A DNA stretch of 64,000 nt, taken from contig JAXKVY010000001.1 in assembly GCA_036172455.1 (NCBI GenBank), forward strand, positions 186,001 to 250,000, written 5' to 3'. The notes below the pieces were generated by a model. It was not told the DNA's origin and did not search any database. It was given only the letters and a program-made list of their open reading frames with translations. Shown piece by piece: positions 7,448 through 23,293 of the stretch (positions within the stretch are counted from its first letter, which is position 1; each line of letters starts with the position of its first letter). Source of the DNA: Candidatus Izemoplasma sp. Lineage in GTDB: Bacteria > Bacillota_I > Bacilli_A > Izemoplasmatales > Izemoplasmataceae. The position numbers and the translations under genes were made by a program.

Positions 7448-8811
7448 GAATACACTCCTTTCATGGTGCTTATTACGTCAAATAGTGATTCAAACGGTGT
7501 AAAGAATACCCCAAATACCACTAATAATAAGGCAATAATAAGATATGCATAGACTGTACTCGTTGAGAAGACGACACGTTTATTCTCTGACTCACCATAC
7601 CACAATGTCATTGAGAGTTTGATAAAATATACCCCTTCAACAACACTACTCATTAAAATGACAATTACTAGCCATAATAAATCGGTATTCGCAAATCGCA
7701 TTAAAATATGTAATTTCACAAAGAATCCAGCAAATAACGGCAAGCCTAAAATACTTAGTACTGCGACACTAAAGGCAAAACCAATCAGTTTATTGTCTGT
7801 AAAAACTCCTTTTAAATCCGTTAGAGTATCAGAGCCAATTTGCCGTTCGATGACCGTAATTGAGCCAAATAAAATTAATTTAGAAAAACCATTTAACGCA
7901 ACGAGCATAATGCCTAAATCCGTTAATCCATGGACAAACACTATGACAGCAATCGCTGCTTGTGCTATCGAACTATAAAGCAGAATATGTTTTGCTCGAG
8001 AGGAAGCGTAAGCCATAGCCTCTCCGGCAATTATACTCACAACTAAAACAACCGATACAATTGTCATTAATGTTTCATTAAATACAAAGAGTTGTGTTAA
8101 AATGCGTCCAAATACCAAAACCATCGTACTCGCATATACACTGGCAATCATTGGTCCACTGAGTGGATTTGAACTTTCTAATATTCCTTTTACCCACGCA
8201 TTTAACGGTAATAACTTAGCTTCTACGCCCAACCCAATAAACATAAATAATAATGGTAAACTGACCAAGGCAGGGTTAACTTGTGCAATAAGATTGCTTA
8301 AAACGCCTAAGTTTAAGGTGTGAAACATTCCATATAAAATAATTAATCCAAGTAAATAGAAACTACTTCCAACAGTCCCTAGGACTAAGTAATGAAATGT
8401 AGCTAATGGTTTACGGTTAGTTGTCGTTATCAGGTAAGCTGATATTCCCGCAATTTCTAAGAAAACAAATAAGTTGAATAAATCACCTGTTAGCAATAAC
8501 CCATTTAACCCAGCTAAGCTAATTAATAAGATAGATCCTATCTTTTTATAATCACATAACGATAAGATTGCTACTAAGAAGAATAAAATATTGACAATAT
8601 AAAGTCCTGCAATGGCATAATCATCAACAATCAACTCAATACCGTAAGGTGCCTTAAAGTTACCAATAACAACAACACCTTTCGTGACATAATCAAGGGA
8701 TACAACACTTAAAAATGAAACAACCAGTAACAAATATGGAGCTACTTTTTTCATTAAAATACTGAGAAAACCAACGAGTAGTGGAACAGCAATTAATAAT
8801 ACAGCATTCAT
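7435..8811 (-). CDS. MbxH-like antiporter subunit (MrpD/NuoN type)
   Basis: This 458-residue polytopic protein of the NuoL/M/N-MrpD family contains GDLFNLFVFLEIAGISAYLI, the conserved glutamate-bearing helix, and LGVEAKLLPLNAWVKG with its key lysine. It is the first of two ion-translocating subunits here. The ribosome site GGGGGAAAAC lies in the end of the C-type gene just upstream. Mrp/Mbx membrane modules translocate Na+ or H+ when electrons flow through the peripheral arm. Confidence 0.92.
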   Translation of the reverse strand: MNAVLLIAVPLLVGFLSILMKKVAPYLLLVVSFLSVVSLDYVTKGVVVIGNFKAPYGIELIVDDYAIAGLYIVNILFFLVAILSLCDYKKIGSILLISLAGLNGLLLTGDLFNLFVFLEIAGISAYLITTTNRKPLATFHYLVLGTVGSSFYLLGLIILYGMFHTLNLGVLSNLIAQVNPALVSLPLLFMFIGLGVEAKLLPLNAWVKGILESSNPLSGPMIASVYASTMVLVFGRILTQLFVFNETLMTIVSVVLVVSIIAGEAMAYASSRAKHILLYSSIAQAAIAVIVFVHGLTDLGIMLVALNGFSKLILFGSITVIERQIGSDTLTDLKGVFTDNKLIGFAFSVAVLSILGLPLFAGFFVKLHILMRFANTDLLWLVIVILMSSVVEGVYFIKLSMTLWYGESENKRVVFSTSTVYAYLIIALLLVVFGVFFTPFESLFDVISTMKGVYSWLI

Positions 8812-9147
8812 TTAGTTTTCCCCCATTTCATCGAGATTCAATGTACCATATTCGGCATATATTTTTCTAGCTAATGCTAATCCGAGCGCTGTTGTTCCAA
8901 CACCTATAACAATAGCTGTTAACACAAGTGCTTGTGGTAATGGATCAACAAACGCTAAATTATTGGTTGCATTGACACTGGTAAATATAGGGGCAATACC
9001 ACCCTCATAATAGCCGACTGTAATAATGAAGATATTTAAACCAATTTCTAATATATTTAAGGCAATAATAATCTTAATAATATGACGTTGAGTGAGTAAC
9101 CCGTAAAGTCCTATCATAAAGAGGATAATCGCTGCATATTGTAACAT
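8812..9147 (-). CDS. MrpC/MbxG-like (NuoK-type) subunit
   Basis: A 111-residue protein with three membrane helices, homologous to MrpC/MnhC and NuoK. The middle helix has NILEIGLNIF with the conserved Glu, and the third has DPLPQALVLTAIVIGVGTTALGLAL, which is nearly the family consensus. It shares one base with the upstream gene and abuts the H gene, as in Mrp and Mbx operons. Confidence 0.93.
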   Translation of the reverse strand: MLQYAAIILFMIGLYGLLTQRHIIKIIIALNILEIGLNIFIITVGYYEGGIAPIFTSVNATNNLAFVDPLPQALVLTAIVIGVGTTALGLALARKIYAEYGTLNLDEMGEN

Positions 9148-9893
9148 TATAACGCCTCCTCTGTTAAGAAATTATCGATTATACCGGTAATTTCACTACC
9201 AACTTTTAAACCAATTAACACATATATAATTGGAATAATACCGGCACTAAAGACTGTACCGATCGTCCCTGTTGGCAAGAAATTTTCTAAGAAGTACCCA
9301 CCGATTAATAATCCAGCAAGGCCAATAGCGACATACGCCATACCAGCAAAGCTTTCTAATAATTTAAACCGTTTCACTTTTGTTCTAAACGTATCATTCG
9401 CTAGATATAATAACAACAAACTACTGGCAATCATTGTCCCACCAGGGAATCCACCACCAGGTGTTAAGTGTCCATGAACAGCCATAAACACACCTGTCAT
9501 TAAAATAATCCCAAACAATGCCCGTGACCCAATACGCAACATAAAGTTAGGTGTGTAATGAAGATCCATACGTTCCTTTTTCTTACCGCCAAGTAATAAC
9601 GCCACCCCTAAGGAACTAATAAAGAGTACTGTAATTTCCCCTAATGTATCAAATGAACGGTAATCTGCCACAATTGCAGTAACGATATTGGCTGGTCCAC
9701 TTTCTAGATTCTCAGATTCACCAAAGATGACATCATCATTATTCTCAGTTACATCACGATCGATATAACTATCGCTATAATGATCGGATGGATTGTTGTT
9801 TCCAAATTCAGTGAATAGCGTATTATTATGTAATGACAGAATGATCATGCCACCAACAACTATTACAAAAATAAATGCTAAAAATTGTTTCAT
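9147..9893 (-). CDS. Fused MbxE/F-like subunit (MrpB domain with N-terminal extension)
   Basis: The 248-residue protein joins two parts that are separate MbhE and MbhF genes in Mbh operons. Residues ~1-110 have one membrane helix, an acidic external loop and an FDTLGEITVLFISSLGVALLL helix (MbhE/MrpA C-terminal type). Residues ~110-248 are MrpB-like, with HGHLTPGGGFPGG, the family's strongest motif. Such a merged form is consistent with Mbx operons, which have no separate E gene. The GGTGATG ribosome site precedes the ATG at 9893. Confidence 0.9.
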   Translation of the reverse strand: MKQFLAFIFVIVVGGMIILSLHNNTLFTEFGNNNPSDHYSDSYIDRDVTENNDDVIFGESENLESGPANIVTAIVADYRSFDTLGEITVLFISSLGVALLLGGKKKERMDLHYTPNFMLRIGSRALFGIILMTGVFMAVHGHLTPGGGFPGGTMIASSLLLLYLANDTFRTKVKRFKLLESFAGMAYVAIGLAGLLIGGYFLENFLPTGTIGTVFSAGIIPIIYVLIGLKVGSEITGIIDNFLTEEAL

Positions 9894-10707: not shown

Positions 10708-11186
10708 TTGAACACCACCCTTAAAATGCGTTCAAATGTCGCACTTATGTGTTGCGTGTTCTCTTCGATAGATGACCCTTGTACATCAATTGTATGAATA
10801 TACAATGTGTCATCCTTCACATCAACACTAAGAGTACCAGGTGTTAATGTAATTGAGTTTGCTAAAATCAACTTGGCAAAGTCTCCTGTTAAATCGGTTT
10901 TCACTTTTACAAAACCGGGATTTAATGGAATATGGACACTTAATACACGCTTCGCAACATTTAGGTTTGATAGGATTAAATGCCAAACGAATACAGGGAT
11001 ATATAAAAATATAAACACTGCGAGACGATATGGCAATAGGTAGTCAATTTTGTAATCCACATACCGAGCAATAATCACTGTGAGAATTAGTGCAATCATT
11101 GCGCCTAAGATGAGTTCTTCTATTACCCAACCAGCTAACAAAATGTAAATCACAAAAAGGACCAAAAATGTAGCTACATATTTCAT
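10704..11186 (-). CDS. MrpE/MbxA-like subunit
   Basis: The 160-residue protein has two to three N-terminal helices followed by a soluble domain. TLTPGTLSVDVKDDTLYIHTIDV is the typical MrpE/MnhE motif region. It is the first of the Mrp-type genes and overlaps the upstream methyltransferase-like gene by ATGA, so both are probably on one transcript. Confidence 0.92.
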   Translation of the reverse strand: MKYVATFLVLFVIYILLAGWVIEELILGAMIALILTVIIARYVDYKIDYLLPYRLAVFIFLYIPVFVWHLILSNLNVAKRVLSVHIPLNPGFVKVKTDLTGDFAKLILANSITLTPGTLSVDVKDDTLYIHTIDVQGSSIEENTQHISATFERILRVVFK

Positions 11187-12097
11187 AAACTTCCTCCTTT
11201 ATTATGGGTATATGTTTGTATCTTAACAACATATTCTTTATTATCTGAAAATGGCCAAATTAACCACTGTTCAAAACCTTTTTTTAAATATTCTTCTAAA
11301 TTGTATAATCCAAAATCTCCCAAGCCCATCCCGTAAGTATCCCGGTATCTACGATAGTGATCATTCATGGTATTATTTTTCATCGATTCCTTAATTTCGC
11401 GCTCAAACTGACTACCTTCTTCTAACTCGAAGATATCACTCATGACAATCAACTGACCCTCTTTTTTAAGATGTCTGTAAAGACTTTGATTAAAGCGATT
11501 AAGTAACGTTGGCATATAATCAAGCACTTGACCTTCAACATATTTAATATAATGTTCTTCAGTAGTTCGTTGTCTGATATGAGCACAAACAGTTAAAAGT
11601 TGATAATATACTAGTTGCGTATATATCGGACTCACATAGATAACGTCATAATATTTATCGTCGAAAAAAGTATACGACTCCAATTGTTTAAAATGAGTAG
11701 TTAAAAATTGATCAAGTTTTTTGTAATTAAGTGGTTTTTGAAAGAGTGCAATTAAATTTTTGAAGAAGTTAATCTGTTCAAAGCCAGTCACATCAACCTG
11801 ATGATACACAATTTTATTCATTGCTTCATCAGATAATTGAAGCGCTTCAACAGATTGTTTTACTGTCTCTATATCAATATCATATAGTGTCATGTGTTGA
11901 CAAAAACGCAGCAAAAAGGATAGAGAAAACTCTCGCATTTTCCCTGCCCCGATAATACATATATCTTTAGTGTTCTCCATTTCTTTCAATGTATCTTTAA
12001 ATAATTGATCAATCTTATGACGAAAATCACGTAACGTCTTATGGTTCGTTTGTAAACTTTCATTCAGTCTTTGATTAAATGTTTGTATACTATACAT
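11183..12097 (-). CDS. SAM-dependent methyltransferase-like protein, first gene of the Mbx-like operon
   Basis: A 304-residue soluble protein. Residues ~45-80 (CIIGAGKMREFSLSFLLRF, then TLYDID) look like motif I and the acidic strand end of a Rossmann-type SAM methyltransferase; SDIFELEEG later fits a late core strand. I do not recognise a closer family or substrate. The ATG at 12097 follows GGTGATTT and fits the promoter; the longer open frame to 12154 would start inside the promoter region. The ATGA overlap with the MrpE-like gene suggests a link to the complex, for example in assembly or regulation, but that is inference. Confidence 0.6.
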   Translation of the reverse strand: MYSIQTFNQRLNESLQTNHKTLRDFRHKIDQLFKDTLKEMENTKDICIIGAGKMREFSLSFLLRFCQHMTLYDIDIETVKQSVEALQLSDEAMNKIVYHQVDVTGFEQINFFKNLIALFQKPLNYKKLDQFLTTHFKQLESYTFFDDKYYDVIYVSPIYTQLVYYQLLTVCAHIRQRTTEEHYIKYVEGQVLDYMPTLLNRFNQSLYRHLKKEGQLIVMSDIFELEEGSQFEREIKESMKNNTMNDHYRRYRDTYGMGLGDFGLYNLEEYLKKGFEQWLIWPFSDNKEYVVKIQTYTHNKGGSL

Positions 12098-12191
12098 TAA
12101 ATCACCATATATATTATAACAAAGCATTAAGCGCATACAAGGGTTATTTTGCATACAAAATAGTTGCTTTTGCTAACAATGGTTTGTATAC
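12081..12191. repeat. Four copies of a G(C/T)ATACAA motif around the Mbx-like operon promoter
   Basis: Copies read GCATACAA at 12133-12140 and 12151-12158 on the plus strand and GTATACAAAC on the minus strand at 12081-12090 and 12182-12191. One overlaps the -35 region. The clustering suggests binding sites for a regulator; I cannot name it. Confidence 0.5.
12113..12140 (-). promoter_or_regulatory. Probable promoter of the Mbx-like operon
   Basis: TTGTAT, 16 nt, TATAAT on the minus strand, 16 nt before the chosen methyltransferase-like start codon at 12097. The -35 hexamer overlaps one of the repeated motifs. Confidence 0.65.
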
Positions 12192-12257
12192 GCTTTTGTT
12201 ATGCGATTATGGATATTAATTAAATTATTGTGATTTAGAATTTTTTTATTTAAGGGT

Positions 12258-12287
12258 AAAAAAAAGGATGCATTATGCATCCTTTTG
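12258..12287 (-). terminator. Terminator of the ABC-F/exporter operon
   Basis: AAAAGGATGCA pairs with TGCATCCTTTT and runs into nine T on the minus strand. The stop codon of the exporter gene (12273-12275) lies in the loop. Confidence 0.9.
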
Positions 12288-14096
12288 GCTTGATTCATTA
12301 ATAAATTGATTGGTATATAAGTTGTAATAATTACCTTTTAAAGAAATTAACTCTTGATGAGTTCCTGATTCAATAATCTTTCCTTTATCTAAAACGAGAA
12401 TTCGATCAGCTTTCGTAATGGTTGACAATCTGTGCGCAACAATGAAACTTGTTCGTCCTTCTAGTAATGTGTCAATCGCATGTTGAATACTTTTTTCTGT
12501 TTTAGTGTCAACGCTTGAAGTGGCTTCATCAAGAATTAAGATTCTTGGATCAGCAATTAATGCCCGTGCAAAACTAATAAGTTGTTTTTGACCAACGCTT
12601 AGTCTGGCACCCCCTTCACCAACTTTTGTGTCGTATCCCTCTTCAAAGGTAATGATAAAGTCATGTGCTTCAACCAGTTTTGATGCCTTAATGATTTCTT
12701 CTTTCGTTGCATCATGGTTACCATACTTAATGTTATCATAAATCGTTCCGCTAAATAAATGCGGTGACTGTAAAACATATCCCAAGTTGTCATGTAACCA
12801 CCCAATTGAGCGGTCTTTATAGTCTTTATCATCGATTAGAATTTGTCCTTCAGTTGGTTCATAGAAGCGACATACTAAGTTAACAATGGTTGATTTACCT
12901 GCGCCTGTATGCCCAACTAATGCAATTGATTCACCTGCTTTGACATGGAGATTAAAGTCATCTAAAACTTTTTCGCCCTCCTTATATTTGAATGTGACAT
13001 GATCAAACTTAATGTCACCAATGAGTGGCTCCCAGTTTTCTTTTTTAAAATTAATCGCATCACCATACGTTTCGATGACATCATCGCGGTCCCAAATTTG
13101 GGGTTCTTCTTCAATTAGCGAGAGCAAGCGTTCGGCTGATGCTTGTGCTTGTTGGAAACGGGCTAAGATATTAGCCAGCTGCATGACGGGTTCAAAGAAC
13201 ATCCCAATATATGCCACAAAGACATAGAATACTCCTATTTCAATAAAGTGATCCGATACTTGAATACCGCCATAATACATAATAAAACCGGTTGTAATAG
13301 AAGCAATAAATAAAATTGTAGGGAAGTATAATCCCGCGAAAATAGCAGCTCTAATGGAGTGTTGGCGCATAGAACTTGTTAAACGATCAAAATCATTATA
13401 ATTTTGTTCTTCTAAGACAAGTGTTTTCGTTGTCTTGGCTCCGGTAATACCTTCATTAAAGGCTCCTGTAATTTTCGAGTTTTCTTTTCTGATTTTTCGG
13501 TAAGAATAGAGAATCTTTTTCCGAAAATAAACACTCACAACAATTAAGAATGGAATTGATATCATAACAATTAAGGCTAATTGCCAGTTTGTAAAGAACA
13601 TAAAAACGGTAATTAATACCATCATTAATAATCCCCATGATAAATCAATCATTCCCCATGATAAGATATCACTTAGTTTCCGTGAGTCACTTGTCATACG
13701 GGCCATAATCCATCCTACTGGTGTTTTATCATAATATGAGAATGGTAATTGATGCAGCTTTTCAAAGGCTTTTTTCCGTAGTGTGTAGGACAATTTTTGT
13801 TGAACTTGACCTGCATTAATGATAAATGAATATACCATAGTCGCAATCACAAACATTAATATAACATACGCACCAATAAAATATGGGAGTAAGGTTAAGT
13901 CTTTTGTCGCTGCAATATTATCAATCGCAAATCGGTTAATCTGTGGATAGATTGCATCTGTAGCTGCTAATACAATGGCACTAAGGACTCCTAAAATGAG
14001 ATGTTTTTTAAAAGGTGCCATCATTTTAAATATTTTAATCCAAACGTTTATATCAAACTTGGATTCGGTAAATTCTTCTTCATCAATATAGTTCAT
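12273..14096 (-). CDS. Heterodimeric ABC exporter, half with canonical Walker B (pair A, second subunit)
   Basis: A 607-residue half transporter: about six membrane helices (~30-325), then a nucleotide-binding domain with GHTGAGKST (Walker A), LILDEATSSVD (Walker B with catalytic Glu) and AHRLST (switch His). Its signature is LSVGQ, a departure from LSGGQ. The partner upstream has LSGGQ but Asp for Glu, so the pair should form one canonical and one degenerate ATP site, like BmrCD/LmrCD-type drug exporters. The ATG at 14096 overlaps the stop of its partner (TAATG) and has an AAAGGAG site; the open frame upstream to 14156 overlaps the partner gene and is not used. Confidence 0.93.
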   Translation of the reverse strand: MNYIDEEEFTESKFDINVWIKIFKMMAPFKKHLILGVLSAIVLAATDAIYPQINRFAIDNIAATKDLTLLPYFIGAYVILMFVIATMVYSFIINAGQVQQKLSYTLRKKAFEKLHQLPFSYYDKTPVGWIMARMTSDSRKLSDILSWGMIDLSWGLLMMVLITVFMFFTNWQLALIVMISIPFLIVVSVYFRKKILYSYRKIRKENSKITGAFNEGITGAKTTKTLVLEEQNYNDFDRLTSSMRQHSIRAAIFAGLYFPTILFIASITTGFIMYYGGIQVSDHFIEIGVFYVFVAYIGMFFEPVMQLANILARFQQAQASAERLLSLIEEEPQIWDRDDVIETYGDAINFKKENWEPLIGDIKFDHVTFKYKEGEKVLDDFNLHVKAGESIALVGHTGAGKSTIVNLVCRFYEPTEGQILIDDKDYKDRSIGWLHDNLGYVLQSPHLFSGTIYDNIKYGNHDATKEEIIKASKLVEAHDFIITFEEGYDTKVGEGGARLSVGQKQLISFARALIADPRILILDEATSSVDTKTEKSIQHAIDTLLEGRTSFIVAHRLSTITKADRILVLDKGKIIESGTHQELISLKGNYYNLYTNQFINESSQKDA

Positions 14097-15898
14097 TAGT
14101 TGTCTCCTTTCTCGAGAGATTGAAATTCTCCCTCGATACTTGTTTGGATTTCCCATAAGTGAGCATATAATCCATCATTTTCTAGTAACTCACTGTGGTT
14201 ACCCATTTCTGTAATATGTCCGTCTTCCAAGACAATAATTTTGTCAGCTTCCATCGCACTCGTTATACGATGTGTAATGATGAAGACTGTCGTATCTTTC
14301 CAGTATTTATTTAATGCACGTCTTATTTGAATATCTGTTTCAGTATCCACAGCACTTAAACTATCATCAAAGATGAGTACTGGTTTATCATCTAGCAACA
14401 TCCGAGCAATCGCTACGCGTTGTTTCTGACCACCACTTAAAGTAACACCTCGCTCACCAACGACTGTTTTATATCCTTTTTCAAAGTCTTCTATATCATC
14501 ATGTAATGCGGCAATACTAGCTGCTTTATACACTTTTTCTTTTGGTGCTTTTTGATCCATAATCCCAATGTTATCGTATACAGAACGACTGTATAAAAAT
14601 GGTTCTTGCATAATGATTCCAATGTTTTTACGAAGATGTTTTTTATTGATTTGGTTGATGGGTACCCCGTCGACTAATATCTCTCCATCAGTAACTTCTA
14701 ATAGTCTTACTAGTAAGTTAATTAGGGTTGATTTACCACTACCGGTTCTACCAATAATGGCGATACTTTCACCACGTTTTGCATCGAAAGAAATCCCTTT
14801 TAATAGTGGTTTATTGTCATCATCAAATTGGAATTTAACATTTTTAAATTGAATATGTCCATTAATAGGCGCTGTATTGTCTGAGTCTCCGTGATGCTCT
14901 GATGGGTTATCCATAATTTCATCAATCCGATCGAGCGCAACGGTTGTTTTACCAAAATCACCAACAATGCGTCCTAATTGACGCATTGGCCAAACAATCA
15001 TTCCTATAAAGGTTAAGAAAGCAACATAACCACCAATTGTTAGACTATCAATACTGACTAAATAGATGCCTACTGAAAGTGTAATTGCATACTGAATGAA
15101 AATGACAAAGTCAGTCCCACTCCAGAAAAAGGCCATTAGTTTTAATAGATGCAAGTCTTCTTTTAAGTAAGTTTTACTTTTTTTATCAAATTGATTAATT
15201 TCAAACTGTTCATTGGCAAATGCTTTTACAACACGAATCCCCGTTACACTTTCTTGTAGTGTTGTTGTCATCTGTGCTTCTGCATCTTCTACTTTACGGA
15301 ATATCTTCTTAACAAATGAGAAATAAATTAATGCAGTAATAAAAATGATTGGTGTGATAATGACTGAGAATAATGTCATCGTCACGTTCACGCGAGACAT
15401 TTGATAAATGGTTAATGTGACTAAAAAGAATAGCCTAAAAATCTCAATCATTTGTGCACCAATAAAGACGCGAAATGTTTCTACGTCTGTGGTACAGCGT
15501 TGAATTAAATCACCCGTCTCAGCATGTGAGTGATACGTAAAGGATAAATCTTGGATATGGGTATACAATGTATTACGCATATTATATGCTACATTCTCAG
15601 TGAATTTCGCATTGATAAAGCGTCTAATAAAAATTAATGTGACACGGAACAATGTATAGAATACATAGACTAGGGCTATATATAATAATTTTTCTTCTAT
15701 TGTATCGCCACGAAATAGTGTCGTGATAAAATCTGGCAAGGCACTTGGCTCATCACCAAAAGTTGTATCAATAATGTGTGTTAAAAATAATGGGGTCAGC
15801 GTTCTAAAGTATTGCAAAGCAATCAATAGAATTACCGTGAAGGCATATATTTTTTTATAGCCATAAATCCATTTTAATACTTGTTTAAGTCGTTTCAT
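14096..15898 (-). CDS. Heterodimeric ABC exporter, half with degenerate Walker B (pair A, first subunit)
   Basis: A 600-residue ABC half exporter with six N-terminal membrane helices. Its nucleotide-binding domain has GRTGSGKST, LSGGQKQR, LIFDDSLSAVD (Asp in place of the catalytic Glu) and THRITS. It forms a heterodimer with the next gene. It starts 3 nt after the ABC-F stop, with the AAGAGGTG site inside the end of that gene, so the order leader peptide, ABC-F, exporter 1, exporter 2 is one operon. Transported substrate is unknown; context points to ribosome-targeting drugs. Confidence 0.93.
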   Translation of the reverse strand: MKRLKQVLKWIYGYKKIYAFTVILLIALQYFRTLTPLFLTHIIDTTFGDEPSALPDFITTLFRGDTIEEKLLYIALVYVFYTLFRVTLIFIRRFINAKFTENVAYNMRNTLYTHIQDLSFTYHSHAETGDLIQRCTTDVETFRVFIGAQMIEIFRLFFLVTLTIYQMSRVNVTMTLFSVIITPIIFITALIYFSFVKKIFRKVEDAEAQMTTTLQESVTGIRVVKAFANEQFEINQFDKKSKTYLKEDLHLLKLMAFFWSGTDFVIFIQYAITLSVGIYLVSIDSLTIGGYVAFLTFIGMIVWPMRQLGRIVGDFGKTTVALDRIDEIMDNPSEHHGDSDNTAPINGHIQFKNVKFQFDDDNKPLLKGISFDAKRGESIAIIGRTGSGKSTLINLLVRLLEVTDGEILVDGVPINQINKKHLRKNIGIIMQEPFLYSRSVYDNIGIMDQKAPKEKVYKAASIAALHDDIEDFEKGYKTVVGERGVTLSGGQKQRVAIARMLLDDKPVLIFDDSLSAVDTETDIQIRRALNKYWKDTTVFIITHRITSAMEADKIIVLEDGHITEMGNHSELLENDGLYAHLWEIQTSIEGEFQSLEKGDN

Positions 15899-15901
15899 AG
15901 T

Positions 15902-17767
15902 TTACACCTCTTCTTCTGTCTGCTCTAAGATGTCAAAATAAGATTGTTCTAGTTGTCTAATCTCCTTTTGAATGTTAGTCATTTTTGCTTGTATTTTTAA
16001 TCCCTTTTCAGCGTCCAAATAGTTTTCTTCATCAAATGATGCTTCTTGTAACATATTTAACTTTTTTTCAAGAGAGTGAATCTGTTGTTCATAGTCTTTT
16101 AATAGTGCTTCTTTGTCTTGTTTATTCGTCTTTTTAGATGTCTTAGTAGTATTTTTTTGTTTTTTTGACTGTTCACGATATTGATTATAGAAAGAATTGA
16201 AATCGCCATCGTGGACATAATAATTATCCCCAGCTAAATATAGTATCCGTGTTGCGATACGGTTGATAAAATACCGATCATGTGACACAAATAATACAGG
16301 TCCCTCAAACTGCTCAATGACATCTTCAATAATGTCTTTTGTATCGATGTCTAAATGATTTGTTGGTTCATCAAGAATCAATAAATCTGGCTTTTCTAGC
16401 ATTAATAAAAGTAATTGAAGCCTTACTTTTTCACCACCACTTAAGACACTAATTGGTTTGTCTAAGTCATCATTAAAGAACAAAAATCTTGCTGCGTATG
16501 TTCTCACATCATAGTTTGTAAATAACGGATGGAGATCATGAATCTCTTCAAATATAGTTTTTGAATGATGCAGTGTACTTTGATTCTGGTCAAAGTATCC
16601 AATCCGGTATCTTCTTAGGAATTTAATACGACCAGATAAAGGCTTAAGACGGTTTCTAATCACATTGATTAATGTTGTTTTACCTGTACCATTAGGTCCA
16701 ACAATACCCAATTTTTCAAACCCTCTCATGGCGAATGAAATATTATCTAATAATATGTTATCTTTATATCCGATAGAGAGATTTTCTGCCTCTAAAACAA
16801 TATCCGTTGTGGCCCGTCTACCGGATAACTCCATCGACACTTTGGCCTTACTCTGCTTAGGTGAGTCAATCCGATCGATGCGTTTCAATTTCTTTGCACG
16901 ATCTTTTGCTAGGGAAGCACGTTTTGCATTATATCTAAATCGGTCAATAAAACTTTGCAAGTGTGCAATTTCTTTTTGTTGTTGTTCATATCGTTTTAAT
17001 TGTAATTCATAGCGTTTGAGTTTTTCTTCTTCATATTGTTCATAATTACCATAATAAATATGCGATGTATGATGATCAATTTCGATGATTTGATCACACA
17101 CATTATCAATAAAGTATTTATCATGTGTCACAATTAATAAAGCACCATCAAATCGATTTAGATAATCCTCTAACCAGCTAATTATTTCAATATCTAAATG
17201 ATTGGTCGGTTCATCAAGAATTAAGAGGTCAGGATTTTCAAGTAACAATTTAGCAAAGGCAATACGTGTTTTCTCACCACCACTAAATGTTTTAATCTCA
17301 CGATTATACAACTCCTTATCAAAGCCGAACTGCGTCAAAACATAATCTATTTTATAATGATAGTCATACCCGCCTCTAAACTGATATTGCTCTTCTAATT
17401 TAGCATACTGATCAAGTAAGGTGTCATTATGGGGATCATTTGCAAGCGCGTGTGCACACTCATCTAATCGCTCTTTGAGATTGATAAGTGATTTAAATAC
17501 ATCGAGCATTTCTTCTTCTAAGGTTTGGTTCGGTTGATGTAAAACAGACTGCGATAAGTATCCTATATTGGCCTGTTTATTTATATGGATTGCACCGTCA
17601 TCAATGAGTTCGTCACCAATGATCATTTTTAACAACGTCGATTTACCGGTTCCATTTTTACCAATTAAAGCTATTTTATTTTTTGTATTTATATCGAATG
17701 AGATATTACTAAATAATGTATCACCGTTAAATTCTTTTTTCAATTTTGAAATCGAAAGTATATTCAT
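15902..17767 (-). CDS. ABC-F family ribosome-associated ATPase (YdiF/Uup-like) under attenuation control
   Basis: This 621-residue protein has two ATP-binding domains and no membrane segments. Domain 1 has GKNGTGKST, FSGGEKTR and LDEPTNHLDI; domain 2 has GPNGTGKTT, LSGGEKVR and LDEPTNHLDI. The interdomain linker is long and basic (~240-300), and a C-terminal coiled coil (~545-621) resembles YdiF-like proteins. ABC-F proteins bind the ribosomal E site to relieve stalling or displace antibiotics. The ATG at 17767 is preceded by AAAGAGGTGATT; the in-frame GTG three codons earlier is less likely. A leader peptide and terminator upstream, and the drug-exporter-like genes downstream, suggest a resistance role, although the linker looks like that of housekeeping members. 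Confidence 0.9.
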   Translation of the reverse strand: MNILSISKLKKEFNGDTLFSNISFDINTKNKIALIGKNGTGKSTLLKMIIGDELIDDGAIHINKQANIGYLSQSVLHQPNQTLEEEMLDVFKSLINLKERLDECAHALANDPHNDTLLDQYAKLEEQYQFRGGYDYHYKIDYVLTQFGFDKELYNREIKTFSGGEKTRIAFAKLLLENPDLLILDEPTNHLDIEIISWLEDYLNRFDGALLIVTHDKYFIDNVCDQIIEIDHHTSHIYYGNYEQYEEEKLKRYELQLKRYEQQQKEIAHLQSFIDRFRYNAKRASLAKDRAKKLKRIDRIDSPKQSKAKVSMELSGRRATTDIVLEAENLSIGYKDNILLDNISFAMRGFEKLGIVGPNGTGKTTLINVIRNRLKPLSGRIKFLRRYRIGYFDQNQSTLHHSKTIFEEIHDLHPLFTNYDVRTYAARFLFFNDDLDKPISVLSGGEKVRLQLLLLMLEKPDLLILDEPTNHLDIDTKDIIEDVIEQFEGPVLFVSHDRYFINRIATRILYLAGDNYYVHDGDFNSFYNQYREQSKKQKNTTKTSKKTNKQDKEALLKDYEQQIHSLEKKLNMLQEASFDEENYLDAEKGLKIQAKMTNIQKEIRQLEQSYFDILEQTEEEV

Positions 17768-17789
17768 TGTAATCACCTCTTTTTGTGCA

Positions 17790-17826
17790 TAAAAAAACTG
17801 CCTTCCATCACTTGATGAAAGACAGT
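17790..17826 (-). terminator. Attenuator terminator upstream of the ABC-F gene
   Basis: In the transcript, ACTGTCTTTCATCA pairs along its whole length (with G-U pairs) with TGATGGAAGGCAGT and is followed by seven T. It lies between the leader peptide stop and the ABC-F ribosome site, 23 nt before the ABC-F start. A terminator before the first structural gene marks transcription attenuation. Confidence 0.88.
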
Positions 17827-17872
17827 ATACGTATCCATAGTAAGTTATATCTCGTTGTATCTAAGGTGATAA

Positions 17873-17983
17873 CTAAGATATAGAGGGATCGACTCTCTTT
17901 GATTCAGTGATGAATTTTTGCATAACAAAAAACATAATTTTTGCATTGTAAGTTCCTGTTGTAATACGCATTTTGTTTACCAT
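17873..17983 (-). CDS. 36-residue leader peptide of the ABC-F/exporter operon
   Basis: A short open frame starts MVNKMRITTGTYNAK and ends RVDPSIS before TAG. It has a strong ribosome site, AAAGAGGTGATGAAA, nearly the same as that of the ABC-F gene. It lies between a good promoter and the attenuator terminator. In operons such as bmrB-bmrCD, stalling of an antibiotic-bound ribosome on the leader prevents terminator formation (known mechanism). Its operation here is inference. The TGATGAAA of its ribosome site (17984-17991) is complementary to TTTCATCA in the terminator's 5' arm, a possible alternative pairing. Confidence 0.75.
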   Translation of the reverse strand: MVNKMRITTGTYNAKIMFFVMQKFITESKRVDPSIS

Positions 17984-18022
17984 TTTCATCACCTCTTTCG
18001 TTTGTTTTTTTTAGCCGATATA

Positions 18023-18051
18023 ATGTTAGCATATCTTATTTAGAATGTAAA
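18023..18051 (-). promoter_or_regulatory. Promoter of the leader/ABC-F/exporter operon
   Basis: TTTACA, 17 nt, TAACAT on the minus strand, about 40 nt before the leader peptide start and directly downstream of the stop of the E2-like gene. Confidence 0.7.
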
Positions 18052-18064
18052 GGTTTTATTTAGA

Positions 18065-18931
18065 TTAAATTTCATCATCTTCAAAAACTTCTTTTGGCTC
18101 ATCTAAAAGCAAACGAGGATTTTCCATGTATTTTTCAGAAAGTCTTAAGCTTTTCGCAAAATAGAATCCATCGACAATACGTTCATCAGCAACAATTTTC
18201 AAATTCATCTTCTTACGCTTTTCGATTTCCATGTCATTATTAACAACATGTTCTTTTCGTTTAATACCAAAGGCGATAAAGATTGAGTTTGTACCAAAAT
18301 TATATATATGATGATATATTGGATCAATTTTTAGTGAGCCTAAATCTGTCACAAATACACTGGAATGAAAAGGACTTAGGTTGATAAGAAACTTTGGTAA
18401 TTTCCCACGATTATCCAAAAACTTAATAAAACCAATCGTAAAACTCAATAGAAAATTCGGTAACAAATTAAAAAACTTTGCCGCCTTATCTGTATTATTA
18501 TTCGCAGCAGCATCTTTATTCTCTTCAACTATCTCATTTACTTTTTTAACGACATCAAATAATGTATCTTTTGGATCAAATACGACTTTAACGGTTGTTT
18601 CTTCTCCATCATCTTCAAGACTTCTTTTTAAGGCAAACGAAATTGAAATTTCATTGCGCGCGTATGTTTTTTTACCACGAACAAACCGATTAAGTTTAGG
18701 TCGTTGTGAGAGTGTCCTAACAACCGCTGCAATGACAACGTGCAAAAAACCAACTTTTAATCCATCTTTGCGTAATTCTCGAATAATTTCATGCGTCTTT
18801 TCTAAATCAATTTGAGATTCAAAAAAGACTTGTGCATCATTGCGTTCTGGCATTAAGTGTGGTATAACACGGAAAAAAGGATTTACGTTACGTAATTTTT
18901 TTCCATCACTTCGATCTCCGAATCTTCTCAT
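18065..18931 (-). CDS. Stand-alone 2-oxoacid dehydrogenase E2-like catalytic-domain protein lacking the active-site His
   Basis: The 288-residue protein matches the CAT-like catalytic domain of lipoyl acyltransferases: SQRPKLNRFVRGK, then FHSSVFVTDLGSL, and near the end a counterpart of the FDHRxxDG motif. There is no lipoyl or subunit-binding domain. The motif reads ADERIVDG, so the catalytic His is Glu250 and normal acyltransferase chemistry is unlikely. A central ~25-residue hydrophobic stretch (LPNFLLSFTIGFIKFLD) is unusual. It has its own promoter and a GGGGAG ribosome site. Function unknown. Confidence 0.8.
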   Translation of the reverse strand: MRRFGDRSDGKKLRNVNPFFRVIPHLMPERNDAQVFFESQIDLEKTHEIIRELRKDGLKVGFLHVVIAAVVRTLSQRPKLNRFVRGKKTYARNEISISFALKRSLEDDGEETTVKVVFDPKDTLFDVVKKVNEIVEENKDAAANNNTDKAAKFFNLLPNFLLSFTIGFIKFLDNRGKLPKFLINLSPFHSSVFVTDLGSLKIDPIYHHIYNFGTNSIFIAFGIKRKEHVVNNDMEIEKRKKMNLKIVADERIVDGFYFAKSLRLSEKYMENPRLLLDEPKEVFEDDEI

Positions 18932-19010: not shown

Positions 19011-20927
19011 CTATTCAGTAACCAAATCTTTAAACTGGGTGGTGTACAAGTCATAATAGAATCCTTTTTGACTAAGTAACGCGTGATGATCTCCAGACTC
19101 AATTAATTGTCCATCCTTCAGCACCAGAATTTGATCTGCATCACGAATCGTTTGTAATCTATGCGCAATAACAAAACTGGTACGATTAGCCATTAAGTTT
19201 CGCATACTTTCTTGAATCTTAAACTCTGTGCGCGTATCTACATTACTAGTTGCCTCATCAAGAATTAAAATATCAGGATCACTCAGAATAGTACGTGCAA
19301 TAGAGATTAACTGACGTTCACCCTGACTGAAGTTCTTACCACCTTCGCGTACAAGCGTATCATAGCCTTTTGGTAGTTTCATGATAAAGTCATGTGCATT
19401 CGCTAATTTACTTGCTTCTATCACTTCATCTTTAGACGCTTTGTGGTTGCCATAGACGATATTGTCATACACACTTCCACTAAATAAACTAGTATCTTGC
19501 AATACGACCCCAATTCGTTTTCTAAAAGCATCTTTTTGTAAAATATCGATTGACTTTTCATCAATTGTTATTGTGCCTCCATCAATATCATAGAAACGAT
19601 TGAATAAATTGATAATCGTTGTCTTGCCACTTCCGGTAGGGCCAACAATTGCTGTGACTTCTCCTTCTAATGCGTTAAAAGATACATTTTTTAAGACAGG
19701 TGTTTCATCATAACCAAATGTTACGTTATCAAAGATAATATGGCCTTTAAGATGCTCTACATCTAATTCACCATCATTGACATACTCATCATCTTCATCG
19801 ATTAGTTCAAATACCCGTTCTGCTCCTGCAATACCTTGTTGAAGGGTACCGAAAAGTTGTGCTAAGTTAGAAATTGGTTGTACAAATTGTCTCGCGTATT
19901 GTGTAACTGCCGAGATATCTCCAATGGTAATCGCTATCCGTCCAGATAATTTAATCAGACCACCGACGAAAACAATCATGACATAAATTAAATTATTCAT
20001 AAAATTAATGGTAGGCATAATTAAACCAGCCATGAGCTGTGCTTTAAAACTTGCTAAACGTAATTTACTGTTTGTCTCGGTAAACTCATCCATAACCGTA
20101 TCTTCAAGTGAGTAAAGTTTAATATTATCAAGACCAGTAATGCTTTCTTCAACAATACTGTTTAAGTTTCCTAAATGTTTTTGTTGAGCGGTAAATTCTT
20201 TTTTGGTCCGTTTACCAATTTTCATAGTAAAAATAACCATCACGGGGATAAATAAAATAGCAACAAGTGCTAATGCCCAGTTGACGACAAACATCATTAT
20301 GAGTGAGCCTACAAGTGTAATAAATGATGCGATTAACTGACTCACAACTTGTGATAATGAATTACTAATCAAATCAACATCATTAGTGATACGCGATACG
20401 ATTGTCCCTGGTTGATTTGTATCATAATATGAGACAGGTAAATTTTGTAAGTTATCGAACGCATCTTGCCGTATTTTAGCAACCGTTTGTTGTGAGATAA
20501 CAGTTAGCAGATACCGTCCAAAATATCTTACGATAACATTTAATAGTCCAACTATGACAATGTAAGCTCCGATTCGGTAAGCCCCTATAAAATCTTTTGT
20601 AAGAATGTAGTTATCAATTGCATAAGCAAATAGCCATGGTACAAAAATAGCAAGTATACTCGTTATCATAATCGCAATTGCAACAATAATTAGTCCAATC
20701 CGATAGTTTCCTAAATAATGCCATATCCGTTTTATTGTTCCGATTCTATCTTGCGCATGTGATCCAAGATAAACACCAAAACGCCTCCCACCAACGCGTT
20801 TATTTAGATGTTTAGAATAATCTTTCATTGCTTCATTTCGTTCTTTTACTTGTGAGTGTGTCAGGATTGTTTTTTTATGATTAACATCTTTATATGGATC
20901 ATGTTGCTGGTTAGATTCATTTGACAT
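19011..20927 (-). CDS. Heterodimeric ABC exporter, half with canonical Walker B (pair B, second subunit)
   Basis: A 638-residue half exporter with a ~75-residue polar N-terminal extension (YKDVNHKKT, then a basic segment), six membrane helices and a nucleotide-binding domain: GPTGSGKTT, a degenerate signature FSQGE, LILDEATSNVD with the catalytic Glu, and AHRLQT. The partner gene supplies the LSGGQ signature. The ATG at 20927 lies inside the end of the partner gene (11-nt overlap) after GGTGGTGATA. The operon is TetR, exporter 1, exporter 2. Confidence 0.93.
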   Translation of the reverse strand: MSNESNQQHDPYKDVNHKKTILTHSQVKERNEAMKDYSKHLNKRVGGRRFGVYLGSHAQDRIGTIKRIWHYLGNYRIGLIIVAIAIMITSILAIFVPWLFAYAIDNYILTKDFIGAYRIGAYIVIVGLLNVIVRYFGRYLLTVISQQTVAKIRQDAFDNLQNLPVSYYDTNQPGTIVSRITNDVDLISNSLSQVVSQLIASFITLVGSLIMMFVVNWALALVAILFIPVMVIFTMKIGKRTKKEFTAQQKHLGNLNSIVEESITGLDNIKLYSLEDTVMDEFTETNSKLRLASFKAQLMAGLIMPTINFMNNLIYVMIVFVGGLIKLSGRIAITIGDISAVTQYARQFVQPISNLAQLFGTLQQGIAGAERVFELIDEDDEYVNDGELDVEHLKGHIIFDNVTFGYDETPVLKNVSFNALEGEVTAIVGPTGSGKTTIINLFNRFYDIDGGTITIDEKSIDILQKDAFRKRIGVVLQDTSLFSGSVYDNIVYGNHKASKDEVIEASKLANAHDFIMKLPKGYDTLVREGGKNFSQGERQLISIARTILSDPDILILDEATSNVDTRTEFKIQESMRNLMANRTSFVIAHRLQTIRDADQILVLKDGQLIESGDHHALLSQKGFYYDLYTTQFKDLVTE

Positions 20928-22689
20928 TATTATCACCACCAATCTGGGATAATGCAATTTCTTGATATACTGTTGATGTTTTTAGTAATTGTTCATGTGT
21001 ATCATACCCATCTATGTGACCTTTGTTATCAAGAACTAATATTTTATCCATATCTTTTATGGTTGAGATTTTTTGAGCAATAACTAACGTAGTCATATTA
21101 TCACTTAACCTATCAATTGCATGAAGTATCTCAGCTTCACTTTTCGCATCAACTGCGCTCGTTGAATCATCTAAAATAAGAATCTGAGGTTTCTTTATAA
21201 ACGCTCTAGCCAAACTTAACCGTTGTTTTTGACCGCCACTTAAATTCGCGCCTTCTTGTTCTACACGATGATTAAAGTAGTCATTGTATTCAGAAATGAA
21301 TTCATAAGCATTTGCTTGTTTTGATGCATTTTCTAAGTCATCAAAAGAAGCCTCTTTTTTTCCTTGTAACATGTTCGTCGCAACACTCCCACTAAAGACT
21401 GTAGCTTTTTGTGTCACCACACTAATTTGTGATCTCAAGGTATCGAGTTTAATGTCTTTAACATCTATATCGTCGATATACACTGTGCCTGAAGTCACAT
21501 CATAGAGTCTAGGAATCAGTTGGATTAAACTAGATTTACCACTACCAGTTGAACCAATAATGCCAACTGTTTCACCAGGGTTAATGGTAAATGAAATATT
21601 ATCTAAGACGTGATTACCATTGTGTCCATATCCAAATGTAACATTTTCAAAAGTAATCTTTCCTTTTAGTGCATGATTTGAAAGACTTTTTGGTTGATCT
21701 TTCAAGTCAATCTCAGTGTCTAACACTTCGGTAATACGATTAGCACTTACAATGGCGCGTGAAATAAAAATCATCATCATTGCGAACATGAGTAGACCAA
21801 ATAAAATTTGCATACTGTAATTATTAAATGCCACCATGATTCCAACTGCAGGTAATGACTCACCTTCAATTATATTTATTAGGTATCCTTGATTAAAATA
21901 ATAGGCACCTAAAAATAATATACCTGCTAACGTGGATGTAAATATAAAAATCATAATCGGTTCAGCAGCAGCTAAGATGCGCTCGGCTGCTGTATTAATA
22001 TCTCTATAAGCAGTATTTACTTTGGTAAAACGATCATTTTCAAAGTCCATGGTCACAAACGACTTAATTACACGTGGTGACTTCGTTGTTTCCAAAGAAA
22101 CCTTATTAAGATCATCAACTGTTTTTTGCACTTTGCTAAATAAAGGAAACGCAAGTAACATTATAACAATAATTGATATAATCAATAATGGAATTGAAAC
22201 AAGAAACACATTTGATAATCGTACACTAGTTGTTAGTGCCATAAATAACCCGATTCCAACCATTAAAGGTGCTCTAACAATAATACGTAAAAGCATTTGA
22301 AAGAATTGTTGCATTCTCACAACATCATTGGTTGAAGTCGTAATTAAACGACTTGTTTTTAAATCATCAATGTTTCTGAAACTTAATCGTTGAATTTTAG
22401 CAAATAGTGTTTCACGTAAATCAGCTGTCGCAAATACCGCCACTTTTTGTGAATTGTATGTATTGATATACCCCATTAAAAGCCCAATAAAAGCAACGCC
22501 AATCATCAATAATCCAGTACGGGTTAAAAGAGCCATATCATTTGAAGGGATAGCAACATCAATGATATCAATCATTAATAAGGGCACAACAAATCCAACA
22601 GTTGTTTGAATCAACATTGCAAATAGCCCAATAAATACATTGAGTTTATATTGCAAAGGATATTTGAATAATCTTAGTAAACTTTTCAT
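20917..22689 (-). CDS. Heterodimeric ABC exporter, half with degenerate ATP site (pair B, first subunit)
   Basis: The 590-residue half exporter has six membrane helices and a nucleotide-binding domain with GSTGSGKSS, LSGGQKQR and LILDDSTSAVD, where Asp replaces the catalytic Glu. The switch His is also gone: the H-loop reads IAQKIST. Both losses mark the non-hydrolysing site of asymmetric exporters. It starts 4 nt after the TetR stop. Substrate unknown; TetR control suggests induction by the exported compound. Confidence 0.93.
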   Translation of the reverse strand: MKSLLRLFKYPLQYKLNVFIGLFAMLIQTTVGFVVPLLMIDIIDVAIPSNDMALLTRTGLLMIGVAFIGLLMGYINTYNSQKVAVFATADLRETLFAKIQRLSFRNIDDLKTSRLITTSTNDVVRMQQFFQMLLRIIVRAPLMVGIGLFMALTTSVRLSNVFLVSIPLLIISIIVIMLLAFPLFSKVQKTVDDLNKVSLETTKSPRVIKSFVTMDFENDRFTKVNTAYRDINTAAERILAAAEPIMIFIFTSTLAGILFLGAYYFNQGYLINIIEGESLPAVGIMVAFNNYSMQILFGLLMFAMMMIFISRAIVSANRITEVLDTEIDLKDQPKSLSNHALKGKITFENVTFGYGHNGNHVLDNISFTINPGETVGIIGSTGSGKSSLIQLIPRLYDVTSGTVYIDDIDVKDIKLDTLRSQISVVTQKATVFSGSVATNMLQGKKEASFDDLENASKQANAYEFISEYNDYFNHRVEQEGANLSGGQKQRLSLARAFIKKPQILILDDSTSAVDAKSEAEILHAIDRLSDNMTTLVIAQKISTIKDMDKILVLDNKGHIDGYDTHEQLLKTSTVYQEIALSQIGGDNNVK

Positions 22690-22693
22690 AAGA

Positions 22694-23293
22694 TCACTTC
22701 AGTACGCCATGTTTAATGATGTCAAGCTTCCACCTTAATGCTTCTAAGGCTTGACTAAAATCAAGTTCTTTATGTTTCGCTTGATGAATGGTATGGCGTT
22801 TAATACTTTGTAATAACTCATAAAACTTAATAAACTCTTCAAATGACATATCTTTATACTTGGATAAATCTAAATGATTCAAAATTTCAATGACATATTC
22901 ACGATGTTCAACTTTACGCTTATCAAAATACGCCTCATTAGATTGTGCATTTTGTAATAAATGCATTAAAAATAAATGGTCTTTTGTTTTGAAATAACCA
23001 TCATAATCTACTTTGAACGTGCGTTCAATAAATTCGAACAAATCGTCTGTTTCCTTGGCAATTCGTCGTCCTTCATCAAATAAATTTGTAAATGATAGAT
23101 CGATAACATAAAAGTAAAGATCCTCTAAGCTATCAAAGTATTGATAGAATGACCCTCTTGGTATATCCGCTTGTTTGATAATATTGCTGATTCTACATTT
23201 ATGCAATGGATGAAGTTTAAACTCATGAATCGCAGAATTAATAATACGTTGTCTTTTTTCTTCACTTAAATTATAAAACGTTTCGTTTGGCAT
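22694..23293 (-). CDS. TetR-family repressor of exporter pair B
   Basis: The 199-residue protein has an N-terminal helix-turn-helix (INSAIHEFKLHPLHKCRISNIIKQADIPRGSFYQYF spans ~18-53), typical of TetR proteins, and an all-helical ligand domain. It is the first gene of the exporter operon. Two inverted repeats in its own promoter fit autorepression relieved by drug binding. Confidence 0.92.
   Translation of the reverse strand: MPNETFYNLSEEKRQRIINSAIHEFKLHPLHKCRISNIIKQADIPRGSFYQYFDSLEDLYFYVIDLSFTNLFDEGRRIAKETDDLFEFIERTFKVDYDGYFKTKDHLFLMHLLQNAQSNEAYFDKRKVEHREYVIEILNHLDLSKYKDMSFEEFIKFYELLQSIKRHTIHQAKHKELDFSQALEALRWKLDIIKHGVLK

Follow-up and report, generated by a model that had tools for sequence, protein, structure and literature searches.

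Organization of the locus

The window analyzed here is a stretch of 64,000 nucleotides from a genome of 1.69 Mb (99% complete) whose nearest named relatives are Candidatus Izemoplasma/Izimaplasma and other metagenome assemblies. On the minus strand, the interval between the end of an acyltransferase-like gene (18065) and the ATG of an ABC-F gene contains a promoter, a short open reading frame (ORF) preceded by a Shine-Dalgarno (SD) sequence, and an intrinsic terminator, and the ABC-F gene is followed after 3 nt by two overlapping ABC half-exporter genes, here called EXP1 and EXP2 (Table 1). An earlier sequence-only reading of this DNA had placed three elements 5' of the ABC-F gene, namely a promoter, an ORF of 36 codons behind a strong ribosome site, and a terminator, and each of them was located. 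A scan of positions 10900-17800 revealed no minus-strand terminator internal to the operon, which together with the nearly gapless arrangement of the genes makes a single transcript of ABC-F, EXP1 and EXP2 likely. One promoter would thus likely serve the ABC-F gene and both exporter genes, in agreement with the proposal in the same reading of a single switch over ABC-F and the exporter pair.

Table 1 Features of the leader and operon, numbered from the first letter of the window
Feature	Positions	Strand	Basis
Extended -10 promoter, TTTACA-17-TAACAT with TG	18023..18051	-	spacing kept in 25/26 leaders
Leader Shine-Dalgarno, AGAGGTGAT	17988..17996	-	sequence; homologous leaders
Strand A of P1, GTGATGAA, overlapping leader SD	17985..17992	-	conserved pairing
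Leader ORF, 36 codons, ATG 17983 to stop 17873, MVNKMRITTGTYNAKIMFFVMQKFITESKRVDPSIS	17873..17983	-	homologues at 26 loci
T6 run (codons FF) just 5' of B, fits TTNTTT	17927..17932	-	NusG pause consensus
Strand B of P1, TTCATCAC, within leader ORF	17907..17914	-	conserved pairing; frame differs among species
Strand E, late leader ORF, alternative partner of C (antiterminator candidate)	17891..17907	-	conserved pairing
Strand C, terminator 5' arm, ACTGTCTTTCATC	17814..17826	-	conserved pairing
Strand D, terminator 3' arm	17797..17809	-	conserved pairing
Terminator U-tract, predicted end of terminated transcript	17791..17796	-	sequence
ABC-F ATPase, 621 aa, SD 17780-17772	15902..17767	-	model search
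EXP1, ABC exporter half, MDR-like	14096..15898	-	search; family genomes
EXP2, ABC exporter half, overlapping EXP1	12273..14156	-	search

The -35 hexamer occupies positions 18051-18046 and is separated by a 17-nt spacer from the -10 element, where TG-C-TAACAT finishes at 18023. The pattern TTTAC[A/T]-N14-TG-N-TA lies 5' of 25 of the 26 homologous leaders, as compared with 0.2% of shuffled sequences. The whole leader (251 nt) folds better than 200/200 dinucleotide shuffles (z = -4.5). Its terminator is formed by 13 consecutive pairs, two of them G.U, that are followed directly by the U-tract. This is the sole terminator-like site in 16.5-19.5 kb, where 1.3 would be expected in shuffles, so that the terminator taken alone stands at chance level and the case for it is made by its conservation before the first structural gene of the homologous loci.

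The ABC-F protein is the only one in the genome above the model cut-off. It passes the generic ribosomal-protection model NF000355 (469 versus 380), a threshold that 8/14 control genomes also pass, and it lies far below the cut-offs of the named resistance models (OptrA, Vga, Sal, Msr, Lsa and others). Its best PDB match is YheS, followed by EttA, and its identity to OptrA is 38%. By these comparisons, the protein fits no named antibiotic-resistance (ARE) subfamily. EXP1 and EXP2 are of the MDR type, with BmrC and BmrD among their matches, not as the best ones. As two adjacent ABC half-exporters of distinct sequence, they are predicted to form a heterodimer of the BmrCD/LmrCD type.

Distribution of the leader among relatives

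A DNA search within the family identified homologous leaders 5' of ABC-F genes, and a covariance model built from 15 leaders was searched in 90 genomes of the order. Matches were obtained in 25/90 genomes, all belonging to the window's own family of Izemoplasma relatives, and a sample of 296 genomes across the class gave none in any other family. The sequence-only reading had suggested conservation of the leader in relatives as a check on its proposal, and such conservation is indeed present across this family. An ORF of 27-36 codons, predicted to be translated, is preceded by an SD and begins with an AUG at constant position in 26/26 leaders.

In clade 1, which comprises genomes with an ABC-F orthologue of >50% identity, the gene order wherever contigs allow it to be read is EXPa/EXPb - acyltransferase-like - leader - ABC-F - EXP1 - EXP2. 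In at least 8 genomes with model matches, the leader lies directly before EXP1 and no ABC-F orthologue is detected at 1e-80. An EXP1 orthologue is present in 44/49 family genomes, and inspection of further genomes that the model had missed reveals a promoter-like site, a short ORF and a terminator 5' of EXP1. The sister family has the order ABC-F - argS-like - EXP1 - EXP2, with no such leader 5' of ABC-F. Because the leader accompanies the exporter in at least 8 genomes lacking ABC-F, gene order indicates that the switch belongs primarily to the exporter and that ABC-F stands behind it only in some genomes. We propose that ABC-F is an old neighbor that may have been brought under the switch, or lost from it in other genera.

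A second leader-terminator copy is found in G013 (contig 31, L052:1501-1690) before a GNAT acetyltransferase gene, which suggests that the module is able to acquire new targets.

Conserved pairings in the leader RNA

Helix P1 is formed between strand A, at the leader SD (GGUGAUGG), and strand B (CCAUCAC), which lies 55-72 nt 3' of the AUG. From its position we propose that P1, which overlaps the leader ORF and is conserved, acts as an anti-antiterminator that would also mask the leader SD. When P1 and the terminator were examined together in 26 aligned leaders, 90.8% of cells were paired, as compared with 36-54% for a slid partner and 87.5% for shuffles. The covariation score was 0.250 versus 0.191, and 0/500 shuffles, which ignore relatedness, scored as high. 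P1 is retained with very different letters in G008, where GAUGGUGAUACU pairs with GGUAUCCCAUC, and the codons of strand B shift frame between species such that they read PS, IT or HH. That the helix is held despite changed letters and a changed frame of B indicates a constraint on the RNA. Among divergent genomes missed by the covariance model, a P1 clearly better than in shuffles persists in G005, G022, G033 and G043 and not in others, such that individual significance is reached only in a few of the divergent genomes; the leaders of G036, G040, G038 and G028 were left out of the P1 evidence.

The T-run directly 5' of strand B fits the NusG pause consensus. TTNTTT stands directly before B in 19/26 leaders, a count to be read against the abundance of T-runs in AT-rich DNA, and G011, whose T-run is broken, still has TTCTTT. 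The run and what follows it are conserved as UUUUUUGUYAUG. To explain this conservation, a pairing of the T-run with the start-codon region was considered by inspection only and was set aside, as the NusG pause motif explains the T-run. The NusG of this genome carries RNTPGVTGF, a stretch that we take to hold the residues reading the TTNTTT motif. NusG-dependent pausing at TTNTTT has been published for vmlR (PMC9226507) and proposed for msrDL (PMC10314930).

The 5' arm of the terminator, strand C, has two candidate alternative partners. When leaders were folded without the terminator 3' arm, C mostly paired with A or with E, the stretch immediately 3' of B, and a scan of C against the whole leader gave two maxima, A (-9.7 kcal/mol) and E (-6.6), with most of the ORF at about -3 to -4. 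For A:C, the leader SDs give a mean of -9.6 kcal/mol versus -5.8 for the start regions of 12 other genes in the window, and the pairing is significant in clade 1 (p = 0.001). For E:C, 78% of cells are paired versus 40-52% for slid partners, the covariation is 0.211 versus 0.171 with 0/500 shuffles as high (these again ignore relatedness), and the comparison of own against swapped partners gives p = 0.001, weakening within the two clades to p = 0.11 and 0.06. Since the shuffle and swap tests ignore relatedness, their significance is overstated, and part of the covariation may go back to one change that the members of a clade share by descent (for example, in six sequences at columns 111-202). 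Only one of A:C and E:C can be the main antiterminator; each is a candidate that fits the same switch logic.

Model for attenuation

How would these elements work together? We consider it quite probable, judging from the sequence features, that the leader is a ribosome-mediated transcription attenuator over a stress-induced exporter operon in which ABC-F is here the first gene. The analysis indicates that this operon is very probably switched on by ribosome stalling, much like known antibiotic-resistance genes. By default, the ribosome would finish the leader and depart, such that strand A could pair with strand B; P1 would then hold A off C, the terminator C:D would form, and the transcript would end near 17791. 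Upon induction, a ribosome stalled or slowed on the leader would cover B, or A itself, and block P1. Strand C would in that case be taken by A or E, the terminator would fail, and ABC-F, EXP1 and EXP2 would be transcribed. The T-run 5' of B probably pauses RNA polymerase and would thereby give the ribosome time to load before B emerges. This scheme is in keeping with the bmrB-type layout of ribosome-mediated attenuation that the sequence-only reading had recognized, the SD-sequestering helix, antiterminator pairings and terminator being conserved with covariation across the family. A further mode of control, translation attenuation via the SD of the ABC-F gene itself, was dropped because that SD is not conserved in relatives (e.g., L036).

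What the ribosome responds to is a separate matter. Macrolides, lincosamides and pleuromutilins, the drugs named in the sequence-only reading for a check, are candidate inducers. One hypothesis is that the leader encodes a drug-specific arrest peptide that stalls only with particular antibiotics through a +x+ motif (K-M-R) or FFVM, as in mefAL, ermDL and msrDL. In favor of this, the window leader has K-M-R at residues 4-6, six exporter-only leaders start with MIKLR or MIKRR, which resembles the MRLR of MefAL (PMC10314930), FFVM is common among the peptides, and, for the trio G013b/G017/G015 and for the pair G019/G020, pN/pS over the latter half of the ORF is 0.15-0.20. However, the +x+ motif (K/R-x-K/R) occurs in 10/41 leaders versus 6.3 expected by shuffling (p = 0.06), so close to chance that it was rejected as a common macrolide sensor, and FFVM is frequent because the T-run dictates these codons: in G025 (L063:1501-1718) the letters of this region are retained, yet they are read in another frame than in relatives. 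The N-terminal halves have a pN/pS of 0.6-1.0, which also argues against an arrest peptide, and the C-terminal halves range from 0.15 to 1.3. An arrest peptide is for these reasons possible but unlikely. Given that the peptide sequence is poorly conserved and that no arrest motif is shared across the leader peptides, the signal is more likely to be slowed translation in general, as at bmrB.

If the leader stalled by itself and ABC-F relieved the stall, induction would follow whenever ABC-F activity became limiting; such feedback would suit a genome with a single ABC-F above the cut-off, and MsrD is known to feed back negatively on its own leader (PMC10314930). The same leader type, however, precedes the exporter in genomes without ABC-F, so that sensing cannot generally depend on this protein, and we regard the feedback as improbable. 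Slightly less probable still is a ligand-binding riboswitch or protein-binding leader in which the ORF is incidental. The stronger conservation of the pairing than of the peptide speaks for it, but an Rfam search of the leader returned nothing at the gathering level (only a chance snoRNA match, E = 0.5), the ORF with its SD and AUG is present in every aligned leader, the SD itself forms one side of P1, and apart from the T-run no unpaired core is conserved. Finally, the terminator could simply serve the upstream acyltransferase-like gene, for which no other terminator is found between its end and 17826, with the ORF present by chance; this would leave unexplained the conserved promoter between both genes, the conservation of ORF, SD and P1 alike, and the G013 copy before an unrelated gene, which makes it very improbable.

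A more far-reaching version of this attenuation model is that the switch serves core physiology rather than drug resistance: an exporter nearly universal in the family would be tied to ribosome slow-down, with an ancestral housekeeping-type ABC-F placed under the same switch such that ribosome rescue and export rise together. We consider this version rather doubtful. If it were true, the leader would sense general translation stress via its RNA architecture while the peptide drifts.

Relation to known attenuators

The locus shares features with several characterized systems. In Bacillus subtilis, vmlR combines a uORF inside an anti-antiterminator with an antiterminator, a terminator and a NusG pause (PMC9226507), and the leader described here resembles it in having the uORF within the anti-antiterminator hairpin, an antiterminator, an intrinsic terminator, a TTNTTT motif and an ABC-F target. 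It differs in that the vmlR uORF is far shorter (MIN) and that VmlR, a proven resistance ABC-F, is not known to be controlled jointly with a pair of exporter genes; the vmlR leader and this one were not found to be related in sequence. The bmrB-bmrCD operon of B. subtilis (PMC4191407) likewise places a leader ORF, terminator, antiterminator and anti-antiterminator before a heterodimeric ABC exporter, whereas the bmrB ORF is 53 codons long and contains the terminator, the operon is without an ABC-F, and EXP1 and EXP2 match BmrC and BmrD only among many ABC exporters.

The sequence-only reading knew of no description of an ABC-F combined with a drug exporter pair under one switch. Joint control of efflux and ABC-F is not new in principle, as in mef(E)/mel and mefA/msrD a single leader-peptide attenuator governs both a pump and an ABC-F (PMC4335068, PMC10314930), but there the pump is of the MFS type, the leader encodes a +x+ arrest peptide of 8 residues, and the genes lie on a mobile element. 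The present locus is chromosomal, conserved by descent, and has the ABC-F gene first. A heterodimeric ABC exporter joined with an ABC-F under leader attenuation appears to be new; no described case was found in the open-licence literature searched, which is weak evidence, and no study of such attenuation in Izemoplasma was found there. Should the model hold, antibiotic-type ribosome-sensing attenuation would be permanently established throughout a family of Izemoplasma relatives, in which dozens of natural variants point to selection on the RNA pairing more than on the peptide, and a ribosome-acting ABC-F and a heterodimeric ABC exporter would be joined under one switch. As a related Izemoplasma has already been cultured (PMC8397711), the prediction could be tested within the lineage.

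Neighboring genes

Directly 5' of the attenuator, positions 18065-18931 (minus strand) encode a 288-aa protein consisting only of a 2-oxoacid dehydrogenase acyltransferase domain. This gene is found at almost every locus in the two clades, and near ABC-F in the sister family. In three sister-family loci (L025, L026 and L028, at about 7840-9610), the gene between ABC-F and the exporter pair was named by eye as arginyl-tRNA synthetase-like. A second ABC half-exporter pair, EXPa/EXPb, lies behind a TetR/FadR-like regulator gene at 19011-23293 (minus strand); it adjoins the attenuated operon and is syntenic in clade-1 relatives.
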